DNA of 64,000 bases, from contig NZ_CP035494.1 in the NCBI RefSeq assembly GCF_004135285.1, positions 744,001 through 808,000 of the forward strand, written 5' to 3'. The stretch comes from Microbacterium protaetiae (GTDB lineage Bacteria > Actinomycetota > Actinomycetes > Actinomycetales > Microbacteriaceae). Below the pieces are notes generated by a model. That model worked only from the letters and a program-made list of their open reading frames with translations. It had not been told where the DNA came from and ran no database searches. Positions 23,971 to 41,621 of the stretch are shown here, piece by piece. A program made the translations under genes and the position numbers. Positions within the stretch are counted from its first letter, which is position 1. Every line of letters starts with the position of its first letter.

Positions 23971-24029
23971 TGCCGGCTCCTTACAGACTGCACCCATCGT
24001 CGTCGATGATTCCAGGATGCGGCATCCCA

Positions 24030-24068
24030 CTCATCATGAAAAGCGAACATCTATGATGAGTTCTCATC
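24030..24068. promoter_or_regulatory. Operator-like repeat array in the putA/LysR divergent gap
   Basis: CTCATCAT at 24030-24037 is the inverted complement of ATGATGAG at 24053-24060. The latter forms a second palindrome with CTCATC at 24063-24068 (GATGAG-TT-CTCATC). Three phased half-sites of this type are what LysR tetramers bind. The array lies 60-100 bases upstream of putA and 29-67 bases upstream of the LysR start, and it is AT-rich compared with its surroundings. Confidence 0.6.
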
Positions 24069-25006: not shown

Positions 25007-28000
25007 CTAGCCCACGGTCGGCGGCGCGTACACGAGCTGTGCCGAGAAGGTGCCCATGCTGCGGCTGACCACCTGCGCGCGGCCCGGCGCCGACGGCACC
25101 GGCTTGACCCGGCCGATCAACGCGCCCTCCTCGGGGTTTCCGCCCAGCAGAATGCCGGTCACGCCCAGATCGGTGAACCGCTGGATGATCGGGTCGTACG
25201 CGGCACGGCTGGCACCACCGGTGCGGCGGGTGAGGATGACGTGCAGGCCGAGGTCGGATGCCTGAGCCAGAAGAGGCTGCAGAGCGGCGATCGGGTTGCC
25301 TTGACTGGTGGCCACGAGATCGTAGTCATCGACGATCACATAGCCTTCGGCACCCTTCCACCAACTGCGGTTGCGCAGCTGGTCGGGCGTGACATCGGGC
25401 CCGGGGATGCGCCCGGTGAAGAACGCCGCGAGCTCTTGCATGCCCGAGGCCGCCATGTCGTGCGAGGTCAGGTAGGCACCCAGATACTCCTGCGGCACCT
25501 CGCCGAGCAGCGAGCGGCGGTAGTCGACCACGAAGATCTTCGCCTCGCTGGGTGCGTACAGCCGTGTAATCTCCTGCACGATGCCGCGCAGGAACGATGA
25601 CTTGCCGGTGCCGGCGTCGCCATACAGGTAGGCATGCGCTTCTTTGCGGGGGTCGATCCCGAACGGCCGCAGGTGCGCCTCGTCGACGCCCAGCAGAAGC
25701 TGACCGAATTGCGCGCCGGCCTGTGCGCGGGCGTCGTCCAGGCTGAGCAGCTGCGGCAGCAGACGCAGCTTGGGGCCGGCCGGTCCACGCCAGGCCGCCG
25801 ACATCTTCGCGATCATGTCGTCGACACCGTCGGCAAGCCGCCCGGGGTTCTGATCGCCGTCGATACGCGGCAGTGCGCCCAGCATTTGCAGTCGCTTGCG
25901 ACTCAGGCCACGTCCCGGCATGTTGCGGGGAACGTTCTGCGCCTGCTTGCGGTCGATCTCGGAGTCGCTCGCATCACCGAGGCGCAGTTCAAGACGCGTC
26001 TGGATGAGGTCTTTCAGGCTCGCGCGAATCTCAAGCCAGCGGTTCGCGGTGACCACCACATGCACGCCGAACCCGAGCCCGCGGCCGGCGATCGTCTGCA
26101 CGCGCATCTCGAGCGGCTCGTATTCGCTGCGCAGCGTGGCCCAGCCGTCGATCACCAAGAAGATGTCGCCGTACCCGTCATCGACGATGCCCTGTGCCCG
26201 GCGCTGGCGGTAGGTGTCGATTGAGTCGATGCCCTGCTCGCGGAAGTACTTCTCACGCGCATCGAGAATGCCCTCGATCTCGGCGATCGTGCGCCGCACC
26301 GATTCCTGATCGGTGCGCGTGGCCACTCCGGCGATGTGCGGGTGCTTCTGCATGCCCGAGAACGCACCGCCGCCGAAGTCGAGCACGTAGAACTGGGTCT
26401 CCAACGGCGTCGTGGTCAGTGCCAGCGCCGAGACGAGCGTGCGCGCGAGCGTCGACTTGCCCGCGAGCGGCGCACCCACGATGGCGACGTGACCGGCCGC
26501 GCCGCCGAGTTCCACCCTGAGCTGTTCGCGCCGCTGTTCGAGCGGAACGTCGACGATCCCCAGCGGGATCGTGAGAGCCCCGGCATCCCGCCACGTCCGC
26601 GACACAAGTCCCAGCTCGGGGTCGACCGCAAGATCACCCATGAGCTGATCGAGGGTCGCCGGCTCGGCCAGCGGCGGCAGCCACACCTGGTGCGCGGCAG
26701 GCCCTCGGCCTGCCATGCGCTCGACGGCGAGCTCGAACGTCGAGCGCTTCTCGCGCTCCACCGGCTGGTGAAGAATCGGGGCGGACGACTCCATCTCGGT
26801 GTCGAGGGCTTGTGCGGCGGCGGTGAACACGTCGATGTCAGCGATGCCCGCGTGTACGTCGCCGGCGGTGGATGCCGCAGACCGGCGCCCCTTCGGCGGG
26901 CCGGAGACATACGCCGCACGAAACTGCACGAGTTCTTCGGTGCCGGACTTGAGGTAGCCGACACCGGGCTGCTGAGGCAAGGTGTACGCGTCAGGCACGC
27001 CCAGCACGGTGCGCGATTCGGCGGCCGAGAAGGTGCGCAGGCCGATCCGATACGACAGATAGGTGTCCAGGCCCCGCAGTTTGCCCTCTTCGAGACGCTG
27101 CGAGGCCAGCAGCAGGTGCACGGCCAGCGAGCGCCCGACGCGGCCGATGTTGATGAAGCTGTCGACGAATTCGGGCTTGGCCGCCAGCAGTTCCGAGAAC
27201 TCGTCGGCGACGATCACCAGTGCCGGCAACGGCTCGAGGTCGGTGCGGCCGCCCCGGCGGGCCTTCTCATAATCGGTGACGTTGGCGAAGTTGCCGGCGG
27301 CACGCAACAGCTCTTGGCGGCGCACCACCTCACCTTGCAGGGCGTCTTGGAAACGGTCGACCAGGGCCAGCTCGCTGCCCAGGTTCGTGATGACCGCCGA
27401 CACGTGCGGCATACCGGCCATGCCGGCGAAGGTCGCACCGCCCTTGAAGTCGACCAGCACGAAGTTCAGCTGCTCGGGCGAGTGGGTCAGAGCGAGGGCG
27501 AGCACCAAGGTACGCAGCACCTCGGATTTGCCGGAGCCGGTCGCACCGATCAGCACCCCGTGCGGCCCCATGCCCTGCTGGGCGGCTTCCTTCAGGTCGA
27601 GGATCAACGGAGCACCCGCGGTGTCCTGCCCGATCGGCACGCGCAGTCGATCGCGCTCGAGCCTCGGGGCCCACGCCCGGTCGACGTCGAGGTCGCGCAC
27701 ATCGGGCAGGCCGAGTAGATCGACGAGCTCGCGCTGCCCGACCGTGGTCTCGCTTCCCCCGCTGCCGGCTGCGACCGGCACGGGCCGAAGCGACATCAGG
27801 CGGCGGGCCGTGGCCTCCGCCTCGACGATGGTCGCGGCATCCGGTGTGAAAACCTGCGTGGCCGCTGCGATGTCGAGGATCTCGGCGGGCTCGCCCGGTG
27901 ACGAGGGCAGGGCCAGACGCAGGGTCGAGGAGTCTTCGAGCTCGCCCCAGCGCTCGGGCAGATCGATGATGGTCACACCCTGCACGCCCTCGATGCCTAC

Positions 28001-28972
28001 GAGGGGGTCACTCAGCGGCAGCGACACGCCATCGGCGACCAGCACGACGTGCGGCGACGGGGCGACGCCGTCGCGCTGAAAGCGCCCGCGCTCGGCCAGC
28101 CCCGCGGGCAGCATGTCCTTCAATGCATCCAGCGAGGTGCTGATCATGCGCGCGGCGCCCAGACGATCCTGCGCGCGCTGCGAATGGGCGTGCGGCAGCC
28201 ACTTCGCCCACTCCCACTGCGCGATCTGGTTCTCACCGGCAAGCACCCCGATGACGAGGTCTTCGGGGTCGTGCAGCGCGGCCAGGCCCACGAGCATCGA
28301 CCGTGCCAGAGCGCGCACGCGCTCGGCATCGGACCCGGTGATCTCCACATGCGAGAACTCGCCGAGATCGACCGCGCACGGCAGATCGTGCTGTGTCTCA
28401 TGGGTGAGCATGAGGCGGTGGGCCGCGGATGCCGCGACCGGGTCGAGCTGCGCAAGCGGCGGCAGCTCGGGCGCGGTCAGTTCCAGCGACAGCGGCTGAT
28501 CGCTGACGCCGACCCGTGCCCGCAAGAACTGCGCGTCACTGGGGCGGCGCTCCCAGACGCGGGTGCGCTCTTCGACGAGGAACGGCAGGGTTGCCGGTGC
28601 CGGGTTCTCCCAGTTGTCGTGCCGGCGCTGTTGTCGGGCAGCGACCCGCACACTGTCGCGCAGCTGGGCCAAGTAGGCGAGGTATTCGCGGCGGTTGCCC
28701 AGCACCTGGGCGTTGTGCTGTGAGCGCTGACGCCAGCCGTTGACCGCCACGAACCCGAGCGACGAGAGCAGGAACATACCGCCGGTGATGAAGCCGGTGG
28801 GGCCCTGATTGGTCACGGTGATCATGACAATGGCACCCAGGCTGCCGACCATCGGCAGCAGGGAAGAGAGGATGCCGGAACCGCCCTCGCTCGGGGCGAG
28901 CTCGGGTGGTGGCTGCACGACGATGCGCTCGACGGGCTTGCGGGGAGGGGCCAGGCGCGATCCACCGCTCAT
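25007..28972 (-). CDS. eccC: Type VII secretion ATPase EccC (fused, three ATPase domains)
   Basis: A 1321-residue FtsK/SpoIIIE-type motor of the type VII secretion system. Two membrane segments lie near residues 35-80. Three P-loops follow: GATGSGKSE near 476, GAPLAGKST near 832 and GDAGTGKSS near 1117. The first domain has a full Walker B, ALVIVADEFSELL, and the VDFKGGATF segment, so it is probably the active one. The others have weaker Walker B segments (FLVIDGWATL and YVIVDDYDLV). The third domain normally binds the C-terminal signal of the Esx dimer. It is the last gene of the leftward arm, overlapping the FHA gene by 4 bases. Confidence 0.95.
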   Translation of the reverse strand: MSGGSRLAPPRKPVERIVVQPPPELAPSEGGSGILSSLLPMVGSLGAIVMITVTNQGPTGFITGGMFLLSSLGFVAVNGWRQRSQHNAQVLGNRREYLAYLAQLRDSVRVAARQQRRHDNWENPAPATLPFLVEERTRVWERRPSDAQFLRARVGVSDQPLSLELTAPELPPLAQLDPVAASAAHRLMLTHETQHDLPCAVDLGEFSHVEITGSDAERVRALARSMLVGLAALHDPEDLVIGVLAGENQIAQWEWAKWLPHAHSQRAQDRLGAARMISTSLDALKDMLPAGLAERGRFQRDGVAPSPHVVLVADGVSLPLSDPLVGIEGVQGVTIIDLPERWGELEDSSTLRLALPSSPGEPAEILDIAAATQVFTPDAATIVEAEATARRLMSLRPVPVAAGSGGSETTVGQRELVDLLGLPDVRDLDVDRAWAPRLERDRLRVPIGQDTAGAPLILDLKEAAQQGMGPHGVLIGATGSGKSEVLRTLVLALALTHSPEQLNFVLVDFKGGATFAGMAGMPHVSAVITNLGSELALVDRFQDALQGEVVRRQELLRAAGNFANVTDYEKARRGGRTDLEPLPALVIVADEFSELLAAKPEFVDSFINIGRVGRSLAVHLLLASQRLEEGKLRGLDTYLSYRIGLRTFSAAESRTVLGVPDAYTLPQQPGVGYLKSGTEELVQFRAAYVSGPPKGRRSAASTAGDVHAGIADIDVFTAAAQALDTEMESSAPILHQPVEREKRSTFELAVERMAGRGPAAHQVWLPPLAEPATLDQLMGDLAVDPELGLVSRTWRDAGALTIPLGIVDVPLEQRREQLRVELGGAAGHVAIVGAPLAGKSTLARTLVSALALTTTPLETQFYVLDFGGGAFSGMQKHPHIAGVATRTDQESVRRTIAEIEGILDAREKYFREQGIDSIDTYRQRRAQGIVDDGYGDIFLVIDGWATLRSEYEPLEMRVQTIAGRGLGFGVHVVVTANRWLEIRASLKDLIQTRLELRLGDASDSEIDRKQAQNVPRNMPGRGLSRKRLQMLGALPRIDGDQNPGRLADGVDDMIAKMSAAWRGPAGPKLRLLPQLLSLDDARAQAGAQFGQLLLGVDEAHLRPFGIDPRKEAHAYLYGDAGTGKSSFLRGIVQEITRLYAPSEAKIFVVDYRRSLLGEVPQEYLGAYLTSHDMAASGMQELAAFFTGRIPGPDVTPDQLRNRSWWKGAEGYVIVDDYDLVATSQGNPIAALQPLLAQASDLGLHVILTRRTGGASRAAYDPIIQRFTDLGVTGILLGGNPEEGALIGRVKPVPSAPGRAQVVSRSMGTFSAQLVYAPPTVG

Positions 28973-30099
28973 ACATCTGCTCCGGTCAGTCGGGTCATGG
29001 TCACAGTCCGATCGCCCACGCGCACGCGCATGCCGTCCTCGACGAGCGTGCGCCGGTGGGCGGTGAGCGGCCGCGCCGCGCCGTCTTCGGCGATGAGGTC
29101 GGACCCGTTGGTCGAGCCGAGGTCGGTGACCCAGGCGTCGGTGGCGGTGATCTCCAGCCGCGCGTGCACCTTCGAGACGGTGCGGCCGGGGTCGTCGACG
29201 CTGATCACCAGGTCACCGTTCTCGACCGGTGTGGGATTACGACCGAGGTCGACAGCGCACGGCACCGGCACCGGCGCGCGCTGGCCGGTGTCGAAGACCA
29301 GCAGCACCGAGGCCGCGCGGGCGTCGAGCGCAGGCAGCACCGAGACCGGCTCGGCAGGCACGGCGCTCGCGCGGCGCGGCGCGGCGATGGCCGCATCGGC
29401 GACTGCGGCAGCAACCGGGGTCGCAGAAACCGGAGTGGCCGTGCGGCGCCGGCGCGGCGCATCTGTCTTTGCCGCGGGCACCTCGCGCACGGGCGCGGGC
29501 ACGCCGAGCATCGACGGCGCTATCGGGGCCGGACGCTCGATGACAGGCGCGACGGGGGCCGCCGGAGCGAGCGCGGACACCTTCGCGCGGTGCGCGCGGC
29601 GCGGTACCTCGACCACGACGGTGCCGGCGAGGCGGTCGGCCCACGAACGCCGCCAGCCGCTGCGGTCGGCCGCGCCGGTGAGCTCGAGCAGCCAAGCGCC
29701 CACGGCGAGCACGCACAGTCCCACCGCCGTGCAGGCGCCGCGCACGAGGGTGCGGCCCCCACCCGGCGAGTCGGGCTTGTCCATGCGGGCCGTGCGCAGG
29801 CGCATCAGCGCGTTGCCGAGCCCGGCACCGGTACGGGCCTGCAGAATCCACAGGGCCAGGGTGGCCTCAACGGCCGCGACGATACCGAAGAACACCGAGC
29901 GGGTGGCGAGGATGACCACACAGGTGACGATGGCCACGGCCGCGATGTCGACAGTGACCGCGGCCATGCGCGCGGCAATGGTGGCCGGACGGATCTGCAC
30001 GGCGCCGCACTGCGGACAGGCGTCGGCGCCCGCGGGCACACCCGATCCGCAGACGGCACAGGCCGTAGCCGCACGAAGGACAGGAGCGTGCGCGGTCAT
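28969..30099 (-). CDS. Zinc-ribbon, RDD-membrane and FHA domain protein of the type VII locus
   Basis: A 376-residue protein with three parts. A short zinc ribbon CAVCG...CPQCG lies at residues 14-32. An RDD-like membrane region (about 40-165, three segments) contains RTLVRGACTAVGLCVL. A Pro/Ala-rich linker follows, then a C-terminal FHA domain (about 275-376) with LGRNP, TVSKVHARL and DLGSTNGSD. FHA domains bind phosphothreonine, so this may tie secretion to a Ser/Thr kinase, but no kinase gene is visible in the window. It overlaps both eccC and eccD by 4 bases, so it belongs to the apparatus operon. Its role there is not established. Confidence 0.85.
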   Translation of the reverse strand: MTAHAPVLRAATACAVCGSGVPAGADACPQCGAVQIRPATIAARMAAVTVDIAAVAIVTCVVILATRSVFFGIVAAVEATLALWILQARTGAGLGNALMRLRTARMDKPDSPGGGRTLVRGACTAVGLCVLAVGAWLLELTGAADRSGWRRSWADRLAGTVVVEVPRRAHRAKVSALAPAAPVAPVIERPAPIAPSMLGVPAPVREVPAAKTDAPRRRRTATPVSATPVAAAVADAAIAAPRRASAVPAEPVSVLPALDARAASVLLVFDTGQRAPVPVPCAVDLGRNPTPVENGDLVISVDDPGRTVSKVHARLEITATDAWVTDLGSTNGSDLIAEDGAARPLTAHRRTLVEDGMRVRVGDRTVTMTRLTGADV

Positions 30100-31457
30100 G
30101 CTGCCATCATCCCACGTAGCAGGTCGACCACCCCGGCCGCCAACAGCCCGGCAGGCAGCGCCAGCGCTATCGCCAGCGATTCGAGCATGTCACCCACTCG
30201 CGACCATCTCAGCGATCGCAGCCCCCGCCCGATCGGCACGATCACGGCGGCGGCGATGACGGCGACCGCCAGCAGGACCACGGCGGCCGCCTCGATCACG
30301 CCGACACCGACGATGCCCCCCACTCCGACGGCGAGGGATGCCACGACCACCGCTGTCGCGGCCCGCGGCATCCATCGCACCGTGCCATGAAGCGCACGGC
30401 GGCTCTGCAGGGTCAGGGCGATCACGAGGCACACGGCCACGGCTATCTGACCCGAGCGGGTGAGCACATCGGCGGTGTCGAGCCGAGCGAGAGCGAACGG
30501 TGCGCTGACAGCCACCGTCACGCAGACGAGAATGGTGCCGGCGCGCCAGCGCGCGGCCGACTGGGCGACCATGCTGCGCGCCTGTGCGGCACGCACCGCG
30601 TGCGCCGGTTCGGGCTCGCGCTGACGGGCACTCCAGCGCAGCGTCTGGAAGCGCATGAAGTCGATGAACATGCCCGGCGCAGCGCTGAGCACGCTCGAGG
30701 GAAGCACGCGCAGCACGACGGGGGCCAGCCCGAGGGTGACGGCGCAGGCGGCCGCGGCCGGCAGTCCCCACACGAGCACGAGCGCCCACAGGCCGGCGAC
30801 GGCGGCAGCGACTCCCGTGACGGCGCCCGCCGCTGCGGCGACCACGCGCCCGGCGGCCACGAGCGTCATCACACCGGCCAGCACGGCGACGGCCGACGCC
30901 GCGCAGATGACGGCGACGTGCACACTGCCCCACGCCAGCGCGGGAGAGACCAGCAGCCCTGCCGCCAGTGCCAGCGCCAGTGGGGCGTAGAACCCGCCGG
31001 TCAGATCGGCATCATCGGCGGTGGTGCGACGCGCCCACACAATGCCGACCGCGAGGGCCGCGACCCCGACGATCAGGCCGACGATGATCGATGTCGCACC
31101 CGATGCACGGGCGGTGAGCGGTGCCAGCAGCGCGATGAGTACGGCGAACACGGCAACCATGGCGGCGGCGTGCTCGTGCGGGGCCGCGGCCGGGTCGCCC
31201 CCGCGCCGGCGACGCGAACGCGGCGACGACAGCGACGGATCGACCACCGTGAACACGTCACCGTCGTCGTACTCGCGCAACAGCCACAGGGGGTCGACCT
31301 CAGCACCCGTGCGGTCGCGCAGCACGACGGGGCCGTCGATGCCCACGTGACGCAGCACCGCGTCCATGGTCATGTCAGCGGGTGCGGCGATATCGTGGCG
31401 CGTCGCGCCGTCGCAGATCGCGACACGACGGCGCTGCGCTGTCTCGACCGAATCCAC
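30096..31457 (-). CDS. EccD-like type VII secretion membrane protein, copy 1
   Basis: A 453-residue protein. Residues about 8-90 form a YukD/ubiquitin-like domain (RRVAICDGATRHDIAAPADM to YDDGDVFTVVDPS), followed by a basic linker SPRSRRRRGG and about eleven membrane segments to the C-terminus. EccD forms the bulk of the membrane vestibule in ESX complexes. It is clearly divergent from the second EccD (37663-39003): I see no extended identity between them, only the same architecture. It overlaps the FHA gene by 4 bases. Confidence 0.85.
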   Translation of the reverse strand: MDSVETAQRRRVAICDGATRHDIAAPADMTMDAVLRHVGIDGPVVLRDRTGAEVDPLWLLREYDDGDVFTVVDPSLSSPRSRRRRGGDPAAAPHEHAAAMVAVFAVLIALLAPLTARASGATSIIVGLIVGVAALAVGIVWARRTTADDADLTGGFYAPLALALAAGLLVSPALAWGSVHVAVICAASAVAVLAGVMTLVAAGRVVAAAAGAVTGVAAAVAGLWALVLVWGLPAAAACAVTLGLAPVVLRVLPSSVLSAAPGMFIDFMRFQTLRWSARQREPEPAHAVRAAQARSMVAQSAARWRAGTILVCVTVAVSAPFALARLDTADVLTRSGQIAVAVCLVIALTLQSRRALHGTVRWMPRAATAVVVASLAVGVGGIVGVGVIEAAAVVLLAVAVIAAAVIVPIGRGLRSLRWSRVGDMLESLAIALALPAGLLAAGVVDLLRGMMAA

Positions 31458-31487
31458 CTGTCCATCCTCGCATCACGTCGCACCCAG

Positions 31488-32798
31488 TCAGTCGCGCCCG
31501 CCGGCGCCGGCGGCCGCCGATCGAGGCCCGAGTTCCTCTTCGTCTTCCAGATGCGGGGCGATCGGTCCGCCCAGGCCGCGCCCCTCCTGCCTGTTCTCGC
31601 CACGGCCCCGACCGCCCGGAGCACCGCCCCCGACCATTCCTGACCGACTGCCGGCCCCAGCACCCGCCGACACCGTGGCCACACTCGCACCACCGCCGGC
31701 ACGCGTGCCGCCCAGCAGTCCTCCGGCACGTCCGCTCGCGCCGGCGGCCGCACCGGCGGCACCGAGACCTCCACCGGCCACGCGCGCTCCGCCGAACAGT
31801 GTTGCGCCGCTCGTGCCCGCCACCGCGCTGCCTGTTGCCGCAGAACCCAGCAGTCCGGAACCGCCCGAACCGTATCCTGAGCCCACACCACCGACACCGT
31901 AACCATTACCGCCTGCGCCGCCCGCGACGCCGCCGCTGCCCGGGATGCCTCCGCCCCACGTGGTGCCACCGGCGTTCGGGCCGTTCGGCGTCAGGACGCC
32001 GCCGGGGCCGACGGACTGGCCCGGGGGTATCACCACCGGCGTGTCGTCATCGAGAACGGGGCCCGAAACGGCCTCCGCCCCTCCGCCTCCGCGGCCGGTA
32101 CCTGCACCCGTACCTGCACCCGAGCCAGGATGCGGATTCGTGAGGGTCAGTCCCCTCGGGAGATTGTCATGATCGATGACAGGAGTGTTCGCTCCCGGAT
32201 AGTTGGCGAAGCTGCCCGGCACTGTCCCTCCCGGAATGGTGCCCGCTCCCGGGGCCGACCCGCGCGTATTGACGTTCGTGTCGTGCTGGGACACGTCGAC
32301 CTTCTCTGGGACGACGATGTCATCGAGCGCATCACTGGCCTTCTTCACAGCGGTCTTCGCGGCGTCTTCGCGCTGGTTGCCGAGGAACCAGTTCACCAGG
32401 CCGACGGCGCCCTCACCCGCGATCACCGAGAACCCTGGGAAAGCGATGGTCGCTCCCGCCGCGGCGCCACGGACGAGAGCCTCCTGCCAACCGTTGAGAC
32501 TGCCCGAGCCGAGGCTCGCAGCATCGGTCTGGGCCTGGGTGCGCACGTCGTTTGCGCGCGTGACCGCATCGTGAAGCTGCTGCGTCGTCGTCGACACCGC
32601 GTGCGCTCGCTGCGACACGGAATTGAGGCTGTCGGCGGCTGCCAGGCCGGTCGTCCCCGTGATCCCGGGATCCTGGGCTGCTTTGTCAAGCAGCGGCTTC
32701 AGCTCGTCCATCGCATCGATCAGCTCCGACGCCGCCGGCATCGAGAACTGCTGACCATACGCGATGTTCTGCAGGCGCTGTTCCCACACTCCGGTCAC
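31488..32798 (-). CDS. Gly/Ala-rich PPE-like protein of the type VII locus
   Basis: A 436-residue protein that I do not recognise as a named family. The N-terminal 150 residues are helical, starting with WEQRLQNIAYGQQF, and include ASLGSGSLNGWQEALVRG and a hydrophobic helix AAGATIAFPGFSVIAGEGAV. From about residue 180 it becomes Pro/Gly-rich, then very Gly/Ala/Ser-rich (GGAGGNGYGVGGVGSGYGSGG), and ends acidic (LEDEEELGPRS). The layout, a structured helical head and a low-complexity tail, recalls mycobacterial PPE/EspI-type substrates. The GTG start overlaps the mycosin stop by 4 bases. It may be a secreted substrate or a cell-wall component; this is inference. Confidence 0.7.
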   Translation of the reverse strand: MTGVWEQRLQNIAYGQQFSMPAASELIDAMDELKPLLDKAAQDPGITGTTGLAAADSLNSVSQRAHAVSTTTQQLHDAVTRANDVRTQAQTDAASLGSGSLNGWQEALVRGAAAGATIAFPGFSVIAGEGAVGLVNWFLGNQREDAAKTAVKKASDALDDIVVPEKVDVSQHDTNVNTRGSAPGAGTIPGGTVPGSFANYPGANTPVIDHDNLPRGLTLTNPHPGSGAGTGAGTGRGGGGAEAVSGPVLDDDTPVVIPPGQSVGPGGVLTPNGPNAGGTTWGGGIPGSGGVAGGAGGNGYGVGGVGSGYGSGGSGLLGSAATGSAVAGTSGATLFGGARVAGGGLGAAGAAAGASGRAGGLLGGTRAGGGASVATVSAGAGAGSRSGMVGGGAPGGRGRGENRQEGRGLGGPIAPHLEDEEELGPRSAAAGAGGRD

Positions 32799-34090: not shown

Positions 34091-34539
34091 ATGTCCCCCG
34101 TGGAGGACACGCGTCCTGCGGTACCCGAATTCTGCGGGACGGAGGTGGGCTGCCGCTGTTCCTGCTGCTCCAGCGCCAGTGCCTGCTGACTCGCCCGCAC
34201 GTCCTCATCGCTCGTGTTCTCTGCCGTCTGATTGATCAGTTCGCGCCGGTCGCGCACCCACGAGACGGAGTGCTGCTCCTGCTCTTCGAACTCATCGACG
34301 ACCTTGCGCAAGGCCTCTGCATTCTTCTTCACCGCAGCACGCACGATGTCGGCGTGCTCGCCCACGGCAGTCGCCCCCGTTCCCAGGCGCTTCACGAACG
34401 ACGCCGTCGCATGCTCACGCGTGTCACCGTGCACCACGCTGGCGCGATCGCTGCCCGGCACCTGCTCATTCTGCGACGTCAGCTTCGACGTGTGCACGGC
34501 GACGATGTCACCGTCGACCATGATCTGCGCCTGTATCAC
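34087..34539 (-). CDS. Small helical protein of the type VII locus, unknown function
   Basis: A 150-residue protein that I do not recognise. The first 30 residues could form strands (MIQAQIMVDGDIVAVHTSKL). Residues about 40-125 look like a long helical hairpin rich in charged residues, with SWVRDRRELINQ at the turn and a Gln-rich helix ALALEQQEQRQ. The tail is disordered. Size, helical content and position between the WXG100 genes and the mycosin suggest a WXG-like partner or a chaperone. No signal peptide or membrane segment is present. The start is a GTG. Confidence 0.6.
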   Translation of the reverse strand: MIQAQIMVDGDIVAVHTSKLTSQNEQVPGSDRASVVHGDTREHATASFVKRLGTGATAVGEHADIVRAAVKKNAEALRKVVDEFEEQEQHSVSWVRDRRELINQTAENTSDEDVRASQQALALEQQEQRQPTSVPQNSGTAGRVSSTGDM

Positions 34540-34607
34540 GGCACGCTCCCTTCACACGAATGTCGTGGCCCGGACGAGTCCGAGCCACGACATCCGGTCA
34601 CATCACG

Positions 34608-34898
34608 TCAGCCTGCGAAACGACCCGCCGACGAGTTGTCCTGCGACACGTACCCCTGCGAGATCTGATCCGTCTTCACCGAAATCTGCTCCAGCAACTC
34701 ATTGAGAGCCACCAAAGACTTCGTCCACTCACGCTGCGCCTGGTCATACGCCTGCTGCGCCGAACCATCCCACGACGCGCGCAACTTGCCCACCGCAGAC
34801 TCCAACGTCTCCAGCTGCGACTTGATGCCCTGCGCACCCGTACGAATCTGACCCGACAGTGCCGTAACCTGCTCCGGCTTCACCGACATCGACTGCAT
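34608..34898 (-). CDS. WXG100 family type VII secretion substrate (EsxA-like)
   Basis: A 96-residue helical-hairpin protein with the WXG turn in LRASWDGSAQQAYDQ at about residue 45. Near the C-terminus YVSQD fits the YxxxD/E type VII export signal. Its length is typical of WXG100 proteins. I prefer the ATG at 34898; a GTG one codon upstream is possible, and the AGAGAGG ribosome site serves either. It is expected to form an antiparallel heterodimer with the other WXG100 protein encoded 34 bases upstream, and to be exported through EccC. Confidence 0.9.
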   Translation of the reverse strand: MQSMSVKPEQVTALSGQIRTGAQGIKSQLETLESAVGKLRASWDGSAQQAYDQAQREWTKSLVALNELLEQISVKTDQISQGYVSQDNSSAGRFAG

Positions 34899-34932
34899 CA
34901 CAAATACCTCTCTCTCAAACCCGAAAACGCCC

Positions 34933-35247
34933 TCAGGCGCCCATCATCGAGCCGAGGCCCGAGATCGTCTGCTGGTGCGAGTCCTCCGTCGCCGACTGAT
35001 CACGCTCGGTCCCCCGCAGCGCGTCCTCCAGCGTCACCAGAACGTTGTTGAGCTTGCGGGTCTCTTCGTCCCAGCGAGCCATCAGCTGCGAGAACGAACC
35101 CGCCGCAGCACCCGTCCAGAACCCAGAGACCTGCTCGATCTCACCGCGCACGAACTTGACCTGCTGGTCAATGCCCGACTTCGCCTCATTCACCGCCTGT
35201 GCGCCGCGTGCGAGCGCACCCTCCTCAGCCGAAATCAAATCAGCCAT
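34933..35247 (-). CDS. WXG100 family type VII secretion protein (EsxB-like)
   Basis: A 104-residue helical-hairpin protein with the WXG turn in VSGFWTGAAAGSFSQL near residue 45. It lacks an obvious YxxxD/E signal, as expected for the non-signal partner of an Esx heterodimer. I chose the ATG at 35247 because GGAGGTT lies 4-10 bases upstream (35252-35258). It is the first gene of the leftward type VII arm and faces the rightward arm across a 191-base divergent region. Confidence 0.9.
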   Translation of the reverse strand: MADLISAEEGALARGAQAVNEAKSGIDQQVKFVRGEIEQVSGFWTGAAAGSFSQLMARWDEETRKLNNVLVTLEDALRGTERDQSATEDSHQQTISGLGSMMGA

Positions 35248-35438
35248 CACAACCTCCAAAAATCACTCGACCCGAACCAAGACACCCCACCTGACCGGCC
35301 GGACATCCGAAACCCATCCAAACACAGGCATCCTGCATGCCGCCAGCCAACACCATGGTGAACATTCCCCATGTCCGCGCACCGCGCCCTTCGCCTACCG
35401 TGGGAGCGTTGGCAGCCCGATGACAGACAGGACGCACC
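35248..35438. promoter_or_regulatory. Divergent control region between the two type VII arms
   Basis: This 191-base gap must carry the promoters of both arms. It contains the perfect 10-base palindrome CACCATGGTG at 35351-35360 and a small hairpin GGCAT/ATGCC at 35327-35341. I cannot identify a confident -35/-10 pair on either strand. No whiB-like, EspR-like or sigma-factor gene lies next to it. Confidence 0.4.
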
Positions 35439-36188
35439 GTGACAGACGACGCCGAGCGGTTCTTCGAGCTGCGCGATTCCTTCGATCGCGACGCACAGCT
35501 GTACCGGCATGCCGCCGCGCAGCCGTTGCCGACCGAGCACACACACGCGACCGGCGTGATCACCGTCGGCATCGACGACGGCGATGTCGTCGAGGTGTCG
35601 CTCACCGAGGCGTGGCGTGATGAGTTCGCCCCTGATGAACTCGGATCTGTCATCGTGCAGACCTTTCAGCAGCTGATGATCGACCGGGCCGGCGCCTGGG
35701 CCCAGAACGTCGATGAGGCGGGTGAGCAGGAGTATCGGGCGACGCCGACGCCGCCTGTCGGAGACAGCTTGGCCGCTCGCGTGCACCAAGCGGTCGAGGA
35801 CGACCCCGATCGGGGCGCCGCGCTGACGACGGTGCTCGAGAATGTGCTGGGTGTGCTCGACGACATCTCACAGAACATCGACGAGACGTTCTCTGCGGCT
35901 TTCCGTCGCGGCCGCACGGTGACGACGACGGCGGCGGGCGGCCACCGCGACGTGAATGTCGAGGTGACCGCGGGCGGCGAGTTGGTCGGGGTGAGCTTCG
36001 ACGACAGCTGGATCCGGTCCGCCAACGCCGCCACGATCACCCGCGAGCTCAACCACGCGCTGGCACAAGCGCGTGAGCGGACCACGCTGGCAGCATCCCA
36101 CCCGCTGGAAGGCACGCCGCTGGCCCGTTACCAGCAGTATGCGGACGACCCCGACAGCTTCCTTCGCTACCTGACCGGAAAGGACTGA
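35439..36188 (+). CDS. YbaB/EbfC-like (EspL-like) protein of the type VII locus
   Basis: A 249-residue cytoplasmic-looking protein made of two similar strand-rich halves. The first has GVITVGIDDGDVVEVSLTEAW. The second has VNVEVTAGGELVGVSFDDSW followed by a helix AATITRELNHALAQARE. The second half resembles the YbaB/EbfC nucleoid-associated fold; EspL of ESX-1 belongs to the same family. The DDAERFFELRDSFDRD start would be an additional helix. It is the first gene of the rightward arm, 3 bases before the EspC-like gene. A chaperone or regulatory role for neighbouring substrates is plausible but inferred. Confidence 0.7.
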   Translation: MTDDAERFFELRDSFDRDAQLYRHAAAQPLPTEHTHATGVITVGIDDGDVVEVSLTEAWRDEFAPDELGSVIVQTFQQLMIDRAGAWAQNVDEAGEQEYRATPTPPVGDSLAARVHQAVEDDPDRGAALTTVLENVLGVLDDISQNIDETFSAAFRRGRTVTTTAAGGHRDVNVEVTAGGELVGVSFDDSWIRSANAATITRELNHALAQARERTTLAASHPLEGTPLARYQQYADDPDSFLRYLTGKD

Positions 36189-36191
36189 TTC

Positions 36192-36503
36192 ATGACCGAT
36201 ATCGCCGCATCGTTCGATGCACTGAGCAAGGACGCCGAGATCTGGGATGCCGCCGGCGACACCCTCTCGCAGGCGCAAAGCGATCTCAACGGGATCGGGG
36301 TGTATCGCGGTGCCTTCTCGTTCGCTGCGCTGGATATCGCCGACCAATACGCGCAGTTGCATCAGACGGTCAGTGATCTGCTCGGCGACGGCGCCACCAA
36401 CACCCGAGCCGGCGCCGCGGCGCTGCGGGCGGTGCGTGCGGACTTCGAGAAGTACGAGGACATCACCCGGTGCGATCTGTACGACATGTGGCAGCCGGAA
36501 TAA
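36192..36503 (+). CDS. EspC/WXG-like type VII secretion-associated protein
   Basis: A 103-residue acidic helical protein. It begins MTDIAASFDALSKDAEIWDA with a second helix from residue about 45 (LDIADQYAQLHQTVSDLLGD), resembling the ESX-1 secretion-associated EspC family of helical-hairpin proteins. There is no classical WXG turn; VYRGAFS sits at the hairpin. No exact YxxxD/E signal is seen in the tail. It lies between the YbaB-like gene and the WXG-membrane chimera and is probably a secreted partner of one of them. Confidence 0.68.
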   Translation: MTDIAASFDALSKDAEIWDAAGDTLSQAQSDLNGIGVYRGAFSFAALDIADQYAQLHQTVSDLLGDGATNTRAGAAALRAVRADFEKYEDITRCDLYDMWQPE

Positions 36504-36519
36504 GAGGAGAGACGACACC

Positions 36520-37215
36520 GTGAACGACATCGCAGAGAAGATCATCCGCCTGCTCGATCAGATAAAGGAGAAGATCGACCAGATCACCCGCATCGTCAAC
36601 GCCGTGCTGGACTCGGTCCCCTTCTTCTTGGAGTGGGTCATCAGCAAGGTGCGGGGCGCGTGGAACGCGATGCTGGACAAACTCGGCGAATTCTGGGCGT
36701 GGTTCACCGACAAGCTCACCTACGTCGGCAACCCTTGGCTGCTCAACGGCGCCGGTGAGGGGTGGACGACCATGGGCGGTTCGGTCGCGCGCATCAACGA
36801 CACGATCACCGACCTGAACCTCTCGGTCGACGACCGGTGGCAGGGTCGCGCCGCGAGCCAGTACGAGCAGTCGATCGAACCGCAGCGCCGCGCCAACACA
36901 TCGATCATGTCGGACTACGCACAGAACATCGGCAACGCGCTCAGTTCGCTGGCCACCGGCATCACCTCGTTCTGGGCCGGCATCTGCGTCGCGATCATCA
37001 CCCTGCTGGGTGCCCTGGCCGGCGCGGCGGTGGCGACGGGGACGATCATCGGCCTGCCCGCCGTGCCGGTGCTGATCGGGCTCGGCATCGCCGCATTCCT
37101 GGTTGCAGCAGGAGCCGGCGTGGCAGTGCTGTACGCCCTGGCCGGCAGCTGCCGCACGACGCTGGGCAACTGCACGGCCGGCATCACCGAGTGGCCGGCG
37201 ATAGCGACCCGATGA
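36520..37215 (+). CDS. WXG-motif protein with C-terminal membrane hairpin
   Basis: A 231-residue protein. The N-terminal 100 residues are amphipathic helices (IRLLDQIKEKIDQITRIV). A WXG turn follows at residue 107 in DDRWQGRAASQYEQS. The C-terminal part has two hydrophobic segments (TSFWAGICVAIITLLGALAG and IGLGIAAFLVAAGAGVAVL). I chose the GTG at 36520 because GAGGAGAG lies 9-16 bases upstream. WXG100 proteins normally have no membrane segments, so this is either a membrane-inserting substrate or a membrane-anchored part of the machine. It overlaps the next gene by 4 bases. Confidence 0.7.
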   Translation: MNDIAEKIIRLLDQIKEKIDQITRIVNAVLDSVPFFLEWVISKVRGAWNAMLDKLGEFWAWFTDKLTYVGNPWLLNGAGEGWTTMGGSVARINDTITDLNLSVDDRWQGRAASQYEQSIEPQRRANTSIMSDYAQNIGNALSSLATGITSFWAGICVAIITLLGALAGAAVATGTIIGLPAVPVLIGLGIAAFLVAAGAGVAVLYALAGSCRTTLGNCTAGITEWPAIATR

Positions 37216-37658
37216 ATGCGGCGCCGTCCTCCGCCACGCCCACGCAGCGGCGCAGCAGGTCGCGGGTGTTCGGAGTGCTCACAGCGTGCATCGCCGTCGT
37301 ACTGGCCGGCGCGAGCGTCGCGGGATACGCGCTGGCGGTCACCGCACCCGAGTCGATGGGATTCGCCCTGACGACCACCGTGCTGACGCTTCTGGCGGGT
37401 GTGCTGGCCGTCCTGGCCTTCCAGTCGGCGCAGAGGTATCCCGACACGCTGCCGCTGTCGGGACCTCTGCGTCTGCTCGCCGTGTTGTCGATCGTCGTGG
37501 CGACCGCGGGAGCGGCGATCACCATCGTCATCGGCGTCGCCCACGGGTCGGTCCCGGCCGTGGTGCTCGCACTTGTCGCGTTCGTGGCCGGCCTCGTGCT
37601 GTTCGCGCTGGCGGCTGCGCTGTACCGCTTCGTCATTCCGGGCCGCTCGGTAGACTGA
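37212..37658 (+). CDS. Small four-helix membrane protein of the type VII locus
   Basis: A 148-residue protein with a basic N-terminus (TQRRSRSRVFG) and four hydrophobic segments (VLTACIAVVLAGASVAGYAL, FALTTTVLTLLAGVLAVLAF, LLAVLSIVVATAGAAITIVI, VVLALVAFVAGLVLFALAAA). I do not recognise a family. It could occupy the place of the missing EccE or act as partner of the preceding WXG-membrane protein, with which it is translationally coupled (ATGA). It lacks the soluble domain expected of EccE. Confidence 0.6.
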   Translation: MNAAPSSATPTQRRSRSRVFGVLTACIAVVLAGASVAGYALAVTAPESMGFALTTTVLTLLAGVLAVLAFQSAQRYPDTLPLSGPLRLLAVLSIVVATAGAAITIVIGVAHGSVPAVVLALVAFVAGLVLFALAAALYRFVIPGRSVD

Positions 37659-37662
37659 CACG

Positions 37663-39003
37663 GTGGCTCAGACAGTAAGCGCACCGCGCGCGCTCGTGCG
37701 CATCTCGGTGCTCGGCGAAGGTCGGCGCCTCGACATCGGCATCCCCGCGCAACTGCCTCTCATCGAGCTGATGCCCGGGTTCGCCCGCAATCTGGGGCTA
37801 CTCGACCCCACGATGACGCACACCGGCTACGAATTGCGACGCGCCGACGGCCGCGCACTCGATGCCGCCGGCACCGCAGCCGCGCAGGGCGTTGCCGACG
37901 GCGATGTGCTGACCCTCGCCCGGGGAGGGCTGGTCGCACAGCCACGCGTCTACGATGACATCGTCGAGGCGGTCATCGATGCGACCGAAGACCAGCATCG
38001 CCCCTGGACTCCGCAAGACGGTGTGCGCACCGCGCTGGGCGCAAGCCTCACGCTGCTGGCCGTGTGCGCGGTCGTTCTCTTGGCGGCCGGTCCGTCGGTG
38101 GGCATCGGCGCCCTCGTGGCAGGCATCGGCGCCGTTCTGCTGATAGCGGTCGGGGTGGTCGTGGCGCGACTCGGGCAGATCGTCGCGGGGCATGCGCTGG
38201 GCGTCGCCGCCGGAGTGTTCGCCGCGATCGGCGGTTACCTCGCGATGGCCGGGGCCGCAATGCCGTGGGCGGTTCCCCTCGCCGTGGGCGGAGCGTGCGC
38301 GTTCGTGGCGGGGGCGGCGACTTCCGCCCTCATGCCCGAGCGACGCGAACTCACTCTGGGTGTCGTGATCGGCGGTGCCGTCATCGCTGTCGCCGGTGGC
38401 GTCACGATCCTGCTGCCGGGCAATGCCGTCGCGGTGTACGCCCTGATGGTGGCCGTTGCAGCCACGGCATCCAACGCCCTTCCCTGGCTCGTGCTCAGTT
38501 CGACCCGCATCCGCGTCATCTCGCCGCACAGCGATGCCGAGGTGTTCGCCGACCCCGCCCCCATCGACGGCGAGGATGTCGCCCGTCGCACGGCGGCGGC
38601 CGCGCGGGCCCTGCTCGTCTCACGCCTGGCGCTGGGCGTGTGCATCCTCATCGCCACCCCGCTGGTGGCGGCATCCGGCGCTGCCGGCAGCGCCCTGTGC
38701 GCGCTCGCGTTCCTGGGCACGATGTTCCCCGCGCGGCAGGTGTACGCGCGCAGCCATGTGATGGCCATCATGACCCTTGCCACGATCGGGCTGGGCGTGA
38801 CCGGAGTAGTGACGGCGATCGCGCAGCCACAGCTGCAGACCGTGTTGCTGGTGGTCGCGGCGGCGGCCACCGTCGTCACCGTGACGGTCACCTTGATCAC
38901 CCCGGGTACGCGGGTGCGCCTGAGCCGGTGGGCGGATGTCGCCGAGCTGGTGATCCTCGCGGCGTTGCTGCCTGTCGGCGTGATCGCGGCGGGGCTGGCG
39001 TAG
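37663..39003 (+). CDS. eccD: EccD-like type VII secretion membrane protein, copy 2
   Basis: A 446-residue protein. The N-terminal ubiquitin-like domain (RALVRISVLGEGRRLDIGIP to VADGDVLTLARGG) is followed by about eleven membrane segments. A cytoplasmic loop in the middle (RIRVISPHSDAEVFADPAPI) matches the usual EccD layout better than copy 1 does. The start is a GTG 5 bases after the previous stop. It sits directly before eccB and a canonical mycosin, so this set looks like the core apparatus operon. Confidence 0.88.
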   Translation: MAQTVSAPRALVRISVLGEGRRLDIGIPAQLPLIELMPGFARNLGLLDPTMTHTGYELRRADGRALDAAGTAAAQGVADGDVLTLARGGLVAQPRVYDDIVEAVIDATEDQHRPWTPQDGVRTALGASLTLLAVCAVVLLAAGPSVGIGALVAGIGAVLLIAVGVVVARLGQIVAGHALGVAAGVFAAIGGYLAMAGAAMPWAVPLAVGGACAFVAGAATSALMPERRELTLGVVIGGAVIAVAGGVTILLPGNAVAVYALMVAVAATASNALPWLVLSSTRIRVISPHSDAEVFADPAPIDGEDVARRTAAAARALLVSRLALGVCILIATPLVAASGAAGSALCALAFLGTMFPARQVYARSHVMAIMTLATIGLGVTGVVTAIAQPQLQTVLLVVAAAATVVTVTVTLITPGTRVRLSRWADVAELVILAALLPVGVIAAGLA

Positions 39004-40320
39004 ATGGCGACCAAAGGCGACCTGATCCAGGCGCAGAGCTTCTCGCAGCGACGCCTGCTCACAGCATTCGTCAGCGGCGCGCCCGGGGGCAAAGAGCTCG
39101 AGCCGGCCAAGCCCATGCGTGCGGTGATCGCGGCGATAGCCATCTCGGTCGCACTCATCGGGGTGGGGGTGTTCTGGGGGCTGGTGCAGCCTGGGCTTCC
39201 GCAGGGCTGGGAGAACGGCCGACTCGTGCTGGCCAAAGACACCGGTGCGCGCTATGTCACCGTCGACGGTACGCTGCACCCCGTCGTGAACACCGCGAGC
39301 GGCCGCCTGCTCATCCCCTCGAGCAGCTTCGCCGTCATCTCGACCTCGCAGGATCAGCTCGACGACGTTCCGCTCGGTTCGACGCTGGGCATCGTCGGGG
39401 CGCCCGATTCCTTGCCCGCGCCGTCGGCGCTGGTCAACGACGGCTGGACCTCGTGCGTGGTCGGCGAGTCGGCACTGTCGACTCGGATCGCCGTCACGCC
39501 GGCGGCCGCGGCCACCGACGACGCCGTGGTCGTCTCCACCGGCGACAAGGTGTTCGTCGTCGCCGGCAACGTGCGCTTTCCCGTGACCGGCGACCATGGC
39601 GACGCCGTGCTGCGCGCGGTGGGGATCACGACCTCGGCACCCCAGCCGGTGCCGGCCTCGTGGATCAACCTGTTCGACCAGGGCACCACCCTGGCGCCAC
39701 TGAACGTGTCGCACGGCACACCCGTCGGCGATTCGAAGCTCGTCACCGGCGAGGTCGTGCACATCGCCGAGACCGCTGACGACGAGCGCTTCTTGATCAC
39801 CGACGACGGACAGCTCGCGGCGTTGAGCCCGCTGGCCTGGCAGTTGTACCAGCTCGGCAACGGCCCGAGCGTGCATGCGCCCACCGAAGTCAGCGCCGCG
39901 CAGGTGAGCGGTCTGCAGACCGCGACAGCTCCCGCCGGCGGCGCCGATTGGCCCAGCGACGGCTTCACGGCGCTCGGCTCGGACCAGCGCCCGTGCGCGC
40001 TGCTGACCCACACGGGCAGCGCGTCGCAGACGGTGCTGGCCGCGCAGGCCACATCGGTCGAGGCAGAGGCAGGGGTGCAGGTGACCGCCGGGATCGGGGC
40101 GCTCGTCCAGGCTGAAGCCGGTGACGACAGCAGCCGCATGCTCACGCTCGTCGACTCGACCGGTACGGCCTTCGCGCTTCCCGGCGCCACCGAAGAGACC
40201 GTTGCTCGACTGGGCTATGCCACCGACGACATCGGCTCGGCCGATGCCGGCTGGACCGCGCTGTTGGCCACCGGGCCGGCCTTGACCACGGATGCTGCGG
40301 GAAAGACCGCAGGCGGATGA
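39004..40320 (+). CDS. eccB: Type VII secretion protein EccB
   Basis: A 438-residue membrane-anchored protein. The short cytoplasmic N-terminus (DLIQAQSFSQRRLLTAFVSG) precedes one membrane segment near residues 40-60 (VIAAIAISVALIGVGVFWGL). The large extracytoplasmic part consists of strand-rich repeats, starting with GRLVLAKDTGARYVTVDGTL. Such EccB proteins cap the periplasm-side of the ESX complex. It starts immediately after the eccD stop and overlaps the mycosin by 4 bases. Confidence 0.9.
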   Translation: MATKGDLIQAQSFSQRRLLTAFVSGAPGGKELEPAKPMRAVIAAIAISVALIGVGVFWGLVQPGLPQGWENGRLVLAKDTGARYVTVDGTLHPVVNTASGRLLIPSSSFAVISTSQDQLDDVPLGSTLGIVGAPDSLPAPSALVNDGWTSCVVGESALSTRIAVTPAAAATDDAVVVSTGDKVFVVAGNVRFPVTGDHGDAVLRAVGITTSAPQPVPASWINLFDQGTTLAPLNVSHGTPVGDSKLVTGEVVHIAETADDERFLITDDGQLAALSPLAWQLYQLGNGPSVHAPTEVSAAQVSGLQTATAPAGGADWPSDGFTALGSDQRPCALLTHTGSASQTVLAAQATSVEAEAGVQVTAGIGALVQAEAGDDSSRMLTLVDSTGTAFALPGATEETVARLGYATDDIGSADAGWTALLATGPALTTDAAGKTAGG

Positions 40321-41621
40321 GCCGGCCGGTACGGTACGGCGCTGCCGCCGCGGCGCTGGCGCTGCTGCTGGCCGCATCACCCGCCGCTGCCGACGCCGCG
40401 ACGCCCAGCGTCGCGCAAGCCACCTCGGGACAGTGCACCGCGGCGACCCGGATCGCCGATGCCCCGCCGGCGTTCCAGATCTTGCAGGCCGAACGCGCCT
40501 GGGCCCTCACGCGCGGCGACGGGGTGGTCGTCGCCGTCGTGGACTCGGGGGTCAATGCCGCCAATCCCCACCTGACCGGTGCGGTACTCAAGGGCGTGAA
40601 CCTCGTCGACGACGACGCTGATTCGACCGGGCGCTCCGACGACTACGGTCACGGAACCGCCATCGCGGGGCAGATCGCGGCCCGGGGAATCTCCGACTCC
40701 GGAGTGATCGGCCTTGCCCCGCAGGTGAAGATCCTGCCTGTGCGGGTCTACGCCGATGTCGACGACCAGGCAGTGAAGGCCGGCACCGGCCCCGACATCT
40801 CGCGGCTGGCCCGCGGCATCCGCTATGCCGCCGATCACGGCGCGCAGATCATCAACGTGTCGCTGAGCACGGCGGCCTCTGACGCGCGGCTCGTGGATGC
40901 CGTCGCGTACGCCGCCGACCACGGCAGCCTCGTCGTGGCCAGCGCCGGCAACCGCGACCAGACCGAGTCTGTGGCCTCGAACGATCGCGACGGCGCGCGA
41001 TACCCGGCCGCGGCGGCGGGTGCGCTCGGTGTGGCAGCCGTCGGCGTCGATGGTGTGGTCACCAGCGACAGCATCCACGGCCCTCATGTGTCGTTGAGTG
41101 CGCCGGGCCAGAACATCCTGTCGGTCAGTCCCGCCGGCGGCGACTGCATCTTCGCCGCGGATGCCCCGGCCACCAGCTACGCGACCGGTTACGTGTCGGC
41201 GGCCGCGGCGCTGGTGGCCGCGCAGTTTCCCGACGAGACGCCGGCACAGTGGGCGTATCGGCTCGAGGTCACCGCCCGCCGGGCGAATCCCGACGCGCGT
41301 GACGACGTGTCAGGGTGGGGAATAGTGCAGCCGTACAGCGCGCTCACCCTCGTTCCCGGCGCCGGCCTGCGCGGACCCGACAGCCCGTTCGTCGACGCAC
41401 AGCCGGCCGCGCCCGAGGCGAGTGCGACGCCGGTTGCCGTACACGATCACCCACCGGCCAATGCCCAGGCATGGGCCATCGCCTCGATCGTGGCCGTACT
41501 CGCCCTGGCGGCGCTGGGCACCATCGGCACCCTCGCCGTGCTGCGGCGGCGCAAGGACGGCACCGAAGAACCGCTGCAGGGCCGCGGCCTGTATGGCGAC
41601 GAGGTGACGACCGAGGAGTGA
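40317..41621 (+). CDS. mycP: Mycosin-type subtilisin protease, canonical copy 2
   Basis: A 434-residue S8 protease with a signal peptide (AAALALLLAASPAAADA), a catalytic domain, and a C-terminal membrane anchor (AIASIVAVLALAALGTIGTL followed by RRRK). The triad is regular: Asp in VVAVVDSGVN, His in DYGHGTAIAG, Ser in ATSYATGYVSAAAAL, with the oxyanion Asn in VVASAGNRD. Mycosins cap and stabilise the ESX membrane complex and cleave some substrates. This copy follows eccB, the usual arrangement. It is clearly different in sequence from the divergent mycosin at 32795-34090. Confidence 0.92.
   Translation: MSRPVRYGAAAAALALLLAASPAAADAATPSVAQATSGQCTAATRIADAPPAFQILQAERAWALTRGDGVVVAVVDSGVNAANPHLTGAVLKGVNLVDDDADSTGRSDDYGHGTAIAGQIAARGISDSGVIGLAPQVKILPVRVYADVDDQAVKAGTGPDISRLARGIRYAADHGAQIINVSLSTAASDARLVDAVAYAADHGSLVVASAGNRDQTESVASNDRDGARYPAAAAGALGVAAVGVDGVVTSDSIHGPHVSLSAPGQNILSVSPAGGDCIFAADAPATSYATGYVSAAAALVAAQFPDETPAQWAYRLEVTARRANPDARDDVSGWGIVQPYSALTLVPGAGLRGPDSPFVDAQPAAPEASATPVAVHDHPPANAQAWAIASIVAVLALAALGTIGTLAVLRRRKDGTEEPLQGRGLYGDEVTTEE

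Follow-up and report, generated by a model that had tools for sequence, protein, structure and literature searches.

The mycobacterial type VII secretion systems (T7SS) ESX-1 to ESX-5 contain EccB, EccC, EccD, a mycosin (MycP) and paired WXG100 proteins. In these systems one EccD gene fills two unequal places and one mycosin serves both structure and cleavage. In the ESX-3 protomer EccB, EccC and EccE are each present once and EccD3 twice, in two different conformations; the bent copy packs its linker on EccB and the EccC stalk, and EccE holds the linker of the extended copy (PMC6986878). ESX-4 and ESX-4EVOL have a core of EccB, EccC, EccD and MycP with one EccD (PMC4791881), in a survey of 60 actinobacterial species whose list of orders, as far as accessible, does not include Micrococcales. 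Some ESX-4 variants are without EccE (PMC11217815, accessible part). The T7SS locus described here is from Microbacterium protaetiae and has two EccD genes and two mycosin genes. It is found in a 64-kb window (positions 744001–808000), the whole stretch of DNA analysed, of a genome of 3.79 Mb that is 100% complete and consists of a single contig.

The locus is like ESX-1 to ESX-5 in the core genes, in the EccD fold and in one mycosin (mycosin-2), which falls with the ESX mycosins. It is unlike them in having two EccD genes, an extra mycosin clade and a zinc ribbon/RDD/FHA protein, in having no EccE or EccA at the locus, and in an EccC that forms a separate clade. The paired functions that share one EccD gene and one mycosin in ESX are here apparently separated. 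The core is shared with ESX-4 and the missing EccE with some ESX-4 variants, but there are two EccDs here and one there. The layouts T7SSc to T7SSj (Garrett, Higginson and Palmer 2024, PMC11217815) are also new T7SS arrangements, several with FHA proteins; however, those are separate subtypes beside T7SSa and T7SSb, and the accessible part of that paper describes no EccD pair. No description of two EccD genes in one T7SS locus was found in the open-access literature, mostly in titles and starts of abstracts, which is no proof of absence. Confidence in the gene content, EccD pairing, clades and cassette is high. The interpretation that is slightly favoured is that of a widespread EccE-less T7SSa subtype, in which one machine would have its EccD asymmetry divided between two genes and its cleaving mycosins split off into protease-substrate cassettes at multiple sites.

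The two EccD genes and their pairing

The locus has two arms. The left arm (minus strand) encodes, from the middle outwards, WXG100 proteins b and a, p150, mycosin-1, a protein termed GlyR, EccD1, the zinc ribbon/RDD/FHA protein and EccC. The right arm (plus strand) encodes, in order, a YbaB-like protein, p103, a WXG100-like membrane protein, a small membrane protein, EccD2, EccB and mycosin-2. Overlaps of 4 bases join p150, mycosin-1 and GlyR, and likewise EccD1, FHA and EccC, and 30 bases separate these two triplets. EccD2 and EccB abut, and EccB and mycosin-2 overlap by 4 bases. EccC (1321 aa, positions 25007–28972 of the window, minus strand) scores 896 bits with NCBIfam TIGR03924 (EccCa) and 801 bits with TIGR03925 (EccCb), both over cut-off. 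EccB (438 aa, 39004–40320, plus strand) scores 170 bits with TIGR03919 (cut-off 154).

A sequence-only reading of this DNA had reported two EccDs, two mycosins, a single EccC and a single EccB. All of these genes are where it placed them, and a whole-genome search agrees: EccD1 and EccD2 are the only EccD genes of the genome, and EccB and full-length EccC occur once each, both in the window. Nor does the genome have a match to EccE (PF11203, E<=0.001) or to EccA (TIGR03922, E<=1e-20), the two genes which that reading had not seen. It had also raised a second eccB or eccC that would pair with the extra copies, and there is none. The next-best EccC match, a lone 969 aa FtsK/SpoIIIE ATPase, was rejected as partner of an extra EccD because the genome has no EccD or EccB outside the window.

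EccD2 (446 aa, 37663–39003, plus strand) matches PF19053 (99 bits) and PF08817 YukD (65 bits), and its NCBIfam EccD score of 92 is just under the cut-off of 95. EccD1 (453 aa, 30096–31457, minus strand) matches PF19053 with 39.4 bits (cut-off 30) and NCBIfam EccD with 21 bits (cut-off 95), and YukD is not found in it by Pfam. An AlphaFold2 model of EccD1 (pLDDT 77, 21-row alignment) displays a beta-grasp ubiquitin-like (Ubl) domain and 11 long membrane helices. All 13 PDB matches of the model at E<=0.001 are chains of ESX-3 or ESX-5 complexes; the table of matches names the complex and not the chain, and the 405–485 residues of these chains fit EccD in length. By its modeled fold EccD1 is a true EccD. 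It keeps the invariant residues in the helices and the C-terminus, and its nearest relatives among the named genomes are from Microbacterium.

Trees of EccDs and mycosins had been proposed in the sequence-only reading, and they resolve both families: the mycosins split in two, and the EccD tree has three sides (SH-aLRT in parentheses), namely EccD1 with 53 rows (99), EccD2 with 47 rows and the EccD of genome G479 (97), and single EccDs with 48 rows (97). A gene is labelled EccD1 or EccD2 by self-set thresholds of 80 and 150 bits, respectively, on models built from the named loci, and 3 of the 47 EccD2 rows represent the second part of a gene cut at the edge of a stretch (G206, G209, G368). For the window genes the end branch is 0.34 in EccD1 versus 0.14 in EccD2. 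The inner branching of EccD1 and EccD2 looks alike, as expected of a co-inherited pair, and the three clades fit either a duplication older than ESX or a fast-evolving EccD1. All trees are 'quick' searches with SH-aLRT support only, that of EccC under LG+G4. EccD pieces and mycosins below 250 aa and EccCs below 900 aa were left out, and the named loci were thinned to 18 of 45 keys (window included) for EccD, 16 for EccC, and the window plus 19 chosen loci for mycosins.

When the named genomes were searched with an alignment of EccD1, 44 loci were found; they belong to Microbacterium, Leifsonia, Schumannella, Agromyces, Leucobacter, Cellulomonas and a small number of unplaced records. EccD2 is present without internal stop in all 44 genomes, as a single match in 43 and as two in-frame pieces in G612. 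An additional weak EccD match (29–33% identity) is found elsewhere in 5 of the 44. Genomes were also sampled by EccC, to avoid selection by EccD1, in overlapping sets of 150 (family), 248 (order) and 197 (class). The places examined were 25 of 26 from the family, where the remaining one is the window, 40 of 70 from the order and 20 from the class list (68 genomes), a total of 85 EccC places, with 20 and 10 stretches extended. EccC is of the two-EccD type, defined as a score >1500 with a model built in this analysis, in 35 of the 85. Both EccDs are present in 31 of these 35 systems, the EccD1 of G336 being assigned by tree place; in the other four (G020, G216, G268, G362) EccD1 is present and the contig ends before the EccD2 arm. 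No EccD1 was found near the other 50 EccCs. The 35 systems are from families f1, f3, f4, f9, f10, f14, f18 and f20 of the order and f31 and f45 outside it, and both EccDs are seen in nine of these ten families, all but f20. The named and EccC-sampled sets overlap (G257 is the L043 genome and G102 the L052 genome), so that the counts of 44 and 35 are not independent. In the EccC tree a branch (99) sets the 51 two-EccD rows apart, and G479 lies next to them on a long branch. The EccD pair is thus retained in 44/44 named genomes and 31/31 uncut systems. Loss of one EccD in close relatives, which the sequence-only reading had named as an argument against its view, was seen in none of those examined; the distant G479 is a possible exception.

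EccE was not found in 31 of 36 two-EccD-type genomes, and the weak matches (22–30 bits) in the other 5 are away from the locus. EccA is over cut-off in none of the 36, with partial AAA-domain matches in 10. By comparison, all four f22 genomes are over cut-off for both. The locus is assigned to T7SSa because EccB, EccD and a mycosin are present; it also has EccC, two EccDs over the Pfam cut-off and two WXG100 genes over cut-off. Mycosin-2, although under its NCBIfam cut-off, is counted as a mycosin because it falls on the same side of the tree as the ESX mycosins and its gene immediately follows EccB. EccE together with EccA, which marks the ESX-1/2/3/5 type, is missing, and so is the single EccD of ESX-4. 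The gene content is that of a putative EccE-less ESX-type (T7SSa) machine, for which WXG100 secretion is predicted.

A third T7SS class is present in the order (L073–L084, L117–L119 and similar loci). It has an EccC score of about 850–960, usually an FHA protein, a weak EccB and a single EccD, and no mycosin >100 bits is nearby in the stretches examined. This is referred to below as the low-EccC class.

Linker motif and the two EccD places

In the EccD3 linker the stretch E110-D111-I112-A113-D114-A115 is called highly conserved in a deep mutational scan (preprint PMC11370616, accessible part here and below). Charge swaps at E110 and D111 led to strong loss of function in a growth assay, D114 tolerated every change, and the authors suggest that the sensitivity of the linker may reflect the bent copy. 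EccD2 has the motif YDDIVEAV (residues 97–104, positions 37951–37974, plus strand), which by position is equivalent to this stretch. Of 61 EccD2 genes, 60 have the motif in the linker; the exception, G206, is a fragment cut at an edge, and the other fragment of that gene carries the motif. Of 80 EccD1 genes, some of which are cut, none has it there. Among single EccDs the strict motif is in 17 of 24 from ESX-like loci, where the misses include G118 and G211 with a form ending in G, and in 4 of 25 from the low-EccC class, many of which carry a looser S-D-V-T-D form.

A second scan, starting from the last Ubl strand, gives 37/37 for EccD2, 0/39 for EccD1 and 17/23 for ESX-like single EccDs. A count over the whole N-terminal part gives 17/69 for EccD1, 55/56 for EccD2 and 20/24 for ESX-like single EccDs, and the EccD2 miss (G292) does have the motif. 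The 17 EccD1 look-alikes were rejected as linker motifs, as every one is an E-D-L-x-D-G within the Ubl domain, ahead of its last strand; the filter of the linker-limited count was set after these had been seen, and it also discards the genuine G-ending forms of G118 and G211. Median linker lengths are 40 for EccD1 and 44 for EccD2, with 27 for EccD1 of the window, values that are noisy because the start is mis-set in several EccD1 genes.

The split in the motif is what would be expected if EccD2 is in the bent place and EccD1 in the other. In the proposed model the EccD pair of each protomer would be an obligate EccD1-EccD2 heterodimer, with EccD2, which keeps the motif, in the bent place and EccD1, which has lost the motif or never had one, in the extended place. 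From sequence, a heterodimer arranged in this way is considered probable. An EccD heterodimer had been suggested in the sequence-only reading, and the suggestion is strengthened by the co-retention of the two genes and by a motif kept only in EccD2.

Several points weigh against this assignment of places. In the extended copy of EccD3, E110 bonds EccE, and I112, A113 and A115 are in contact with the other Ubl domain (PMC11370616). The motif therefore serves the extended copy as well, and the absence of EccE may be all that lies behind its loss in EccD1. The strict motif is also missing in 7/24 ESX-like and 21/25 low-EccC systems with one EccD, and the EccD1 linker was compared with ESX-3 by position, not by structure. 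Since some ESX-4 variants have no EccE (PMC11217815), loss of EccE does not require two EccDs; moreover an EccE match slightly over cut-off (23.8–30.2 bits) occurs in 4 of the 36 two-EccD-type genomes, in no case near the locus. As to pairing, G479 (L161) has an EccD2-like EccD, including the linker motif, and no second polytopic EccD in its stretches. This distant system may lack EccD1, either by loss or as a relic with one EccD, and is the sole case against strict pairing.

EccD1 might instead be an accessory membrane protein, e.g., a partner of the FHA/RDD protein, with EccD2 forming the usual homodimer and EccD1 no part of the vestibule. The zinc ribbon/RDD/FHA membrane protein (376 aa, 28969–30099, minus strand) has an FHA domain over cut-off (27.7 bits), has RDD and zinc ribbon below cut-off, and overlaps EccC by 4 bases. 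Its gene adjoins EccD1 in the window and in most Microbacteriaceae loci, and the longer end branch and changed linker of EccD1 would also be in keeping with an accessory role. However, EccD1 keeps the EccD fold and the invariant residues and is not lost in any two-EccD-type system seen. It also persists where an FHA neighbor is not seen, in several EccD1-bearing families (f18, G213, G402, G451, G510), and FHA is therefore not an obligate partner. An accessory EccD1 is considered unlikely.

Somewhat less likely still is that EccD1 and EccD2 each form homodimers, in two alternative machines that share EccB and EccC and serve different substrates or conditions. EccD1 is coupled to the arm with EccC and FHA, and EccD2 to the arm with EccB and mycosin-2, so that the amounts of the two could be set separately. 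Yet a system with only one EccD is found in 0/31 uncut EccC-sampled systems and 0/44 named genomes, and the motif used by the bent ESX-3 copy is missing from EccD1.

Two clades of mycosins and the GlyR cassette

The heterodimer model is joined by a proposed division of labor between the two mycosins. Mycosin-2 (40317–41621, plus strand) scores 259 bits with TIGR03921, just under the cut-off of 279, and has D76, H112, N212 and S287. Mycosin-1 (32795–34090, minus strand) is a subtilase with 84 bits for PF00082 Peptidase_S8 and 117 for the mycosin model (cut-off 279), and has D64, H108, N210 and S279. A decayed mycosin-1 was rejected, the Asp-His-Ser triad being intact. In 44 GlyR-side mycosins the catalytic residues are present as D in 43, H in 44 and S in 44, and the helper Asn in 39.

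Among 163 mycosin genes, 64 are beside GlyR, 58 beside EccB, 41 beside neither and 0 beside both. The mycosin tree has one side of 59 rows, with 44/44 EccB-side mycosins and the ESX mycosins, and another of 67 rows, with 44/44 GlyR-side mycosins and lineage-specific copies. Mycosin-2, which adjoins EccB, groups with the ESX mycosins and mycosin-1 is in the cassette clade.

The cassette consists of p150, mycosin-1 and GlyR. The helical p150 (150 aa, 34087–34539, minus strand) has no family over cut-off, overlaps mycosin-1 by 4 bases and adjoins mycosin-1 in many cassettes. GlyR (436 aa, 31488–32798, minus strand), a candidate secreted substrate, has a helical N-terminal domain and a Gly-rich C-terminus, and no Pfam family at E<=1. 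Its conserved C-terminal tail (GLGGPIAPHLEDEEELGPRSAAAGAGGR, 31494–31577, minus strand) has a similar counterpart in most GlyR genes compared. The tail is acidic, of the form GLGGPIAPxLEDDEExGPRS...AGGR, and follows a poorly conserved Gly-rich stretch; it is a possible signal for export, anchoring or cleavage.

Two further mycosin-1-type genes are present in the genome outside the window. A second set, p150-mycosin-mycosin-GlyR, is at 887696–892221 of the genome, about 102 kb away, and there is no Ecc gene in the 20 kb stretch examined. In the L034, L036 and L038 genomes the cassette set is likewise located away from EccD1, and there are from none to several copies of the mycosin-1 type per locus. 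Conservation of both mycosins in relatives, a check put forward in the sequence-only reading, is accordingly only partial: the mycosin-1 type is missing from the main locus of some (L036, L038). A separate observation is that six cassette-clade mycosins surround one two-EccD locus in G336 (L113, L173, L174).

Mycosin-2, encoded directly after EccB, would be the core mycosin. Mycosin-1 would not be a second cap but a protease whose gene forms one unit with those of p150 and GlyR, and its probable target would be GlyR, itself a candidate for secretion. As judged from the gene arrangement, mycosin-1 is probably a substrate-linked protease that acts on GlyR. The known parallel is MycP1 and EspB of ESX-1, where a mycosin cleaves a secreted protein (PMC5156307, accessible part), and GlyR may be an EspB-like protein. 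In contrast to MycP1, the two mycosin roles here seem split between two mycosin clades.

Some findings do not favor this view of the cassette. The cassette mycosin was not found in the stretch of 7/31 systems and was not sought elsewhere in them. The N-terminal model of GlyR (pLDDT 87) has no Foldseek match at E<=0.001, and in a second comparison (VIA) its structural neighbors are PPE chains tied with BAR domains. Because of this tie, a PPE kinship of GlyR is not claimed.

A capping role for both mycosins, at two sides of the machine or at two stages, is very improbable. In its favor, the triad is intact in each, and by eye each starts like a signal peptide and has a membrane segment at the C-terminus; but the mycosin-1 type is tied to GlyR, occurs away from the machine, varies in copy number and is missing at the main locus in L036 and L038. 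Capping of two sides by the two mycosins, as first suggested from the sequence, is for the same reasons not supported, mycosin-1 having a clade of its own whose members are far from the machine in some relatives and, as extra copies, in this genome. The accompanying suggestion of two substrate classes survives only in a changed form, as that of a substrate-bound protease.

Remaining genes and significance

WXG100 proteins a (34608–34901) and b (34933–35259), both on the minus strand, match PF06013 with 67 and 45 bits. The right arm begins with the YbaB-like protein (249 aa, 35439–36188), which scores 25.0 bits with PF02575, just under the cut-off of 25.5, and has relatives in few loci only. 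It is followed by p103 (36192–36503), a small protein with no family, matched among the named loci only in L016. The WXG100-like protein with membrane segments (36508–37215) has a WXG100 score of 17 bits, below cut-off, and its start is probably GTG near 36520 (by eye). The small membrane protein (148 aa, 37212–37658) is an open frame with no family over cut-off. All four are on the plus strand. This set (35439–37658) has good matches only in M. luticocti (L016) and weaker matches in a few other loci, and is possibly a variable substrate or accessory set. A PutA-like bifunctional proline dehydrogenase/aldehyde dehydrogenase adjoins the T7SS locus (window 20281–24030).

Elsewhere in the genome, the lone EccC-like ATPase of 969 aa (L008:6512–9421, ~178.5–181.4 kb of the genome) is directly beside a PP2C phosphatase gene. 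Further WXG100 genes are at L175:4624–5861 (~880.6–881.9 kb of the genome) and L176:5255–5980, and a 316 aa protein without a Pfam family follows the former.

The reason for two unequal EccD copies in each ESX protomer, and the role of each, are hard to approach genetically because one gene makes both. If the proposed model is true, each EccD place has its own gene, and the bent and extended roles would be testable singly, in environmental strains; in the same way, the division between two mycosins would allow what MycP does for structure to be told apart from what it does as a protease. Since both EccDs occur in nine of the sampled families, this layout is probably a major one among T7SS outside mycobacteria.

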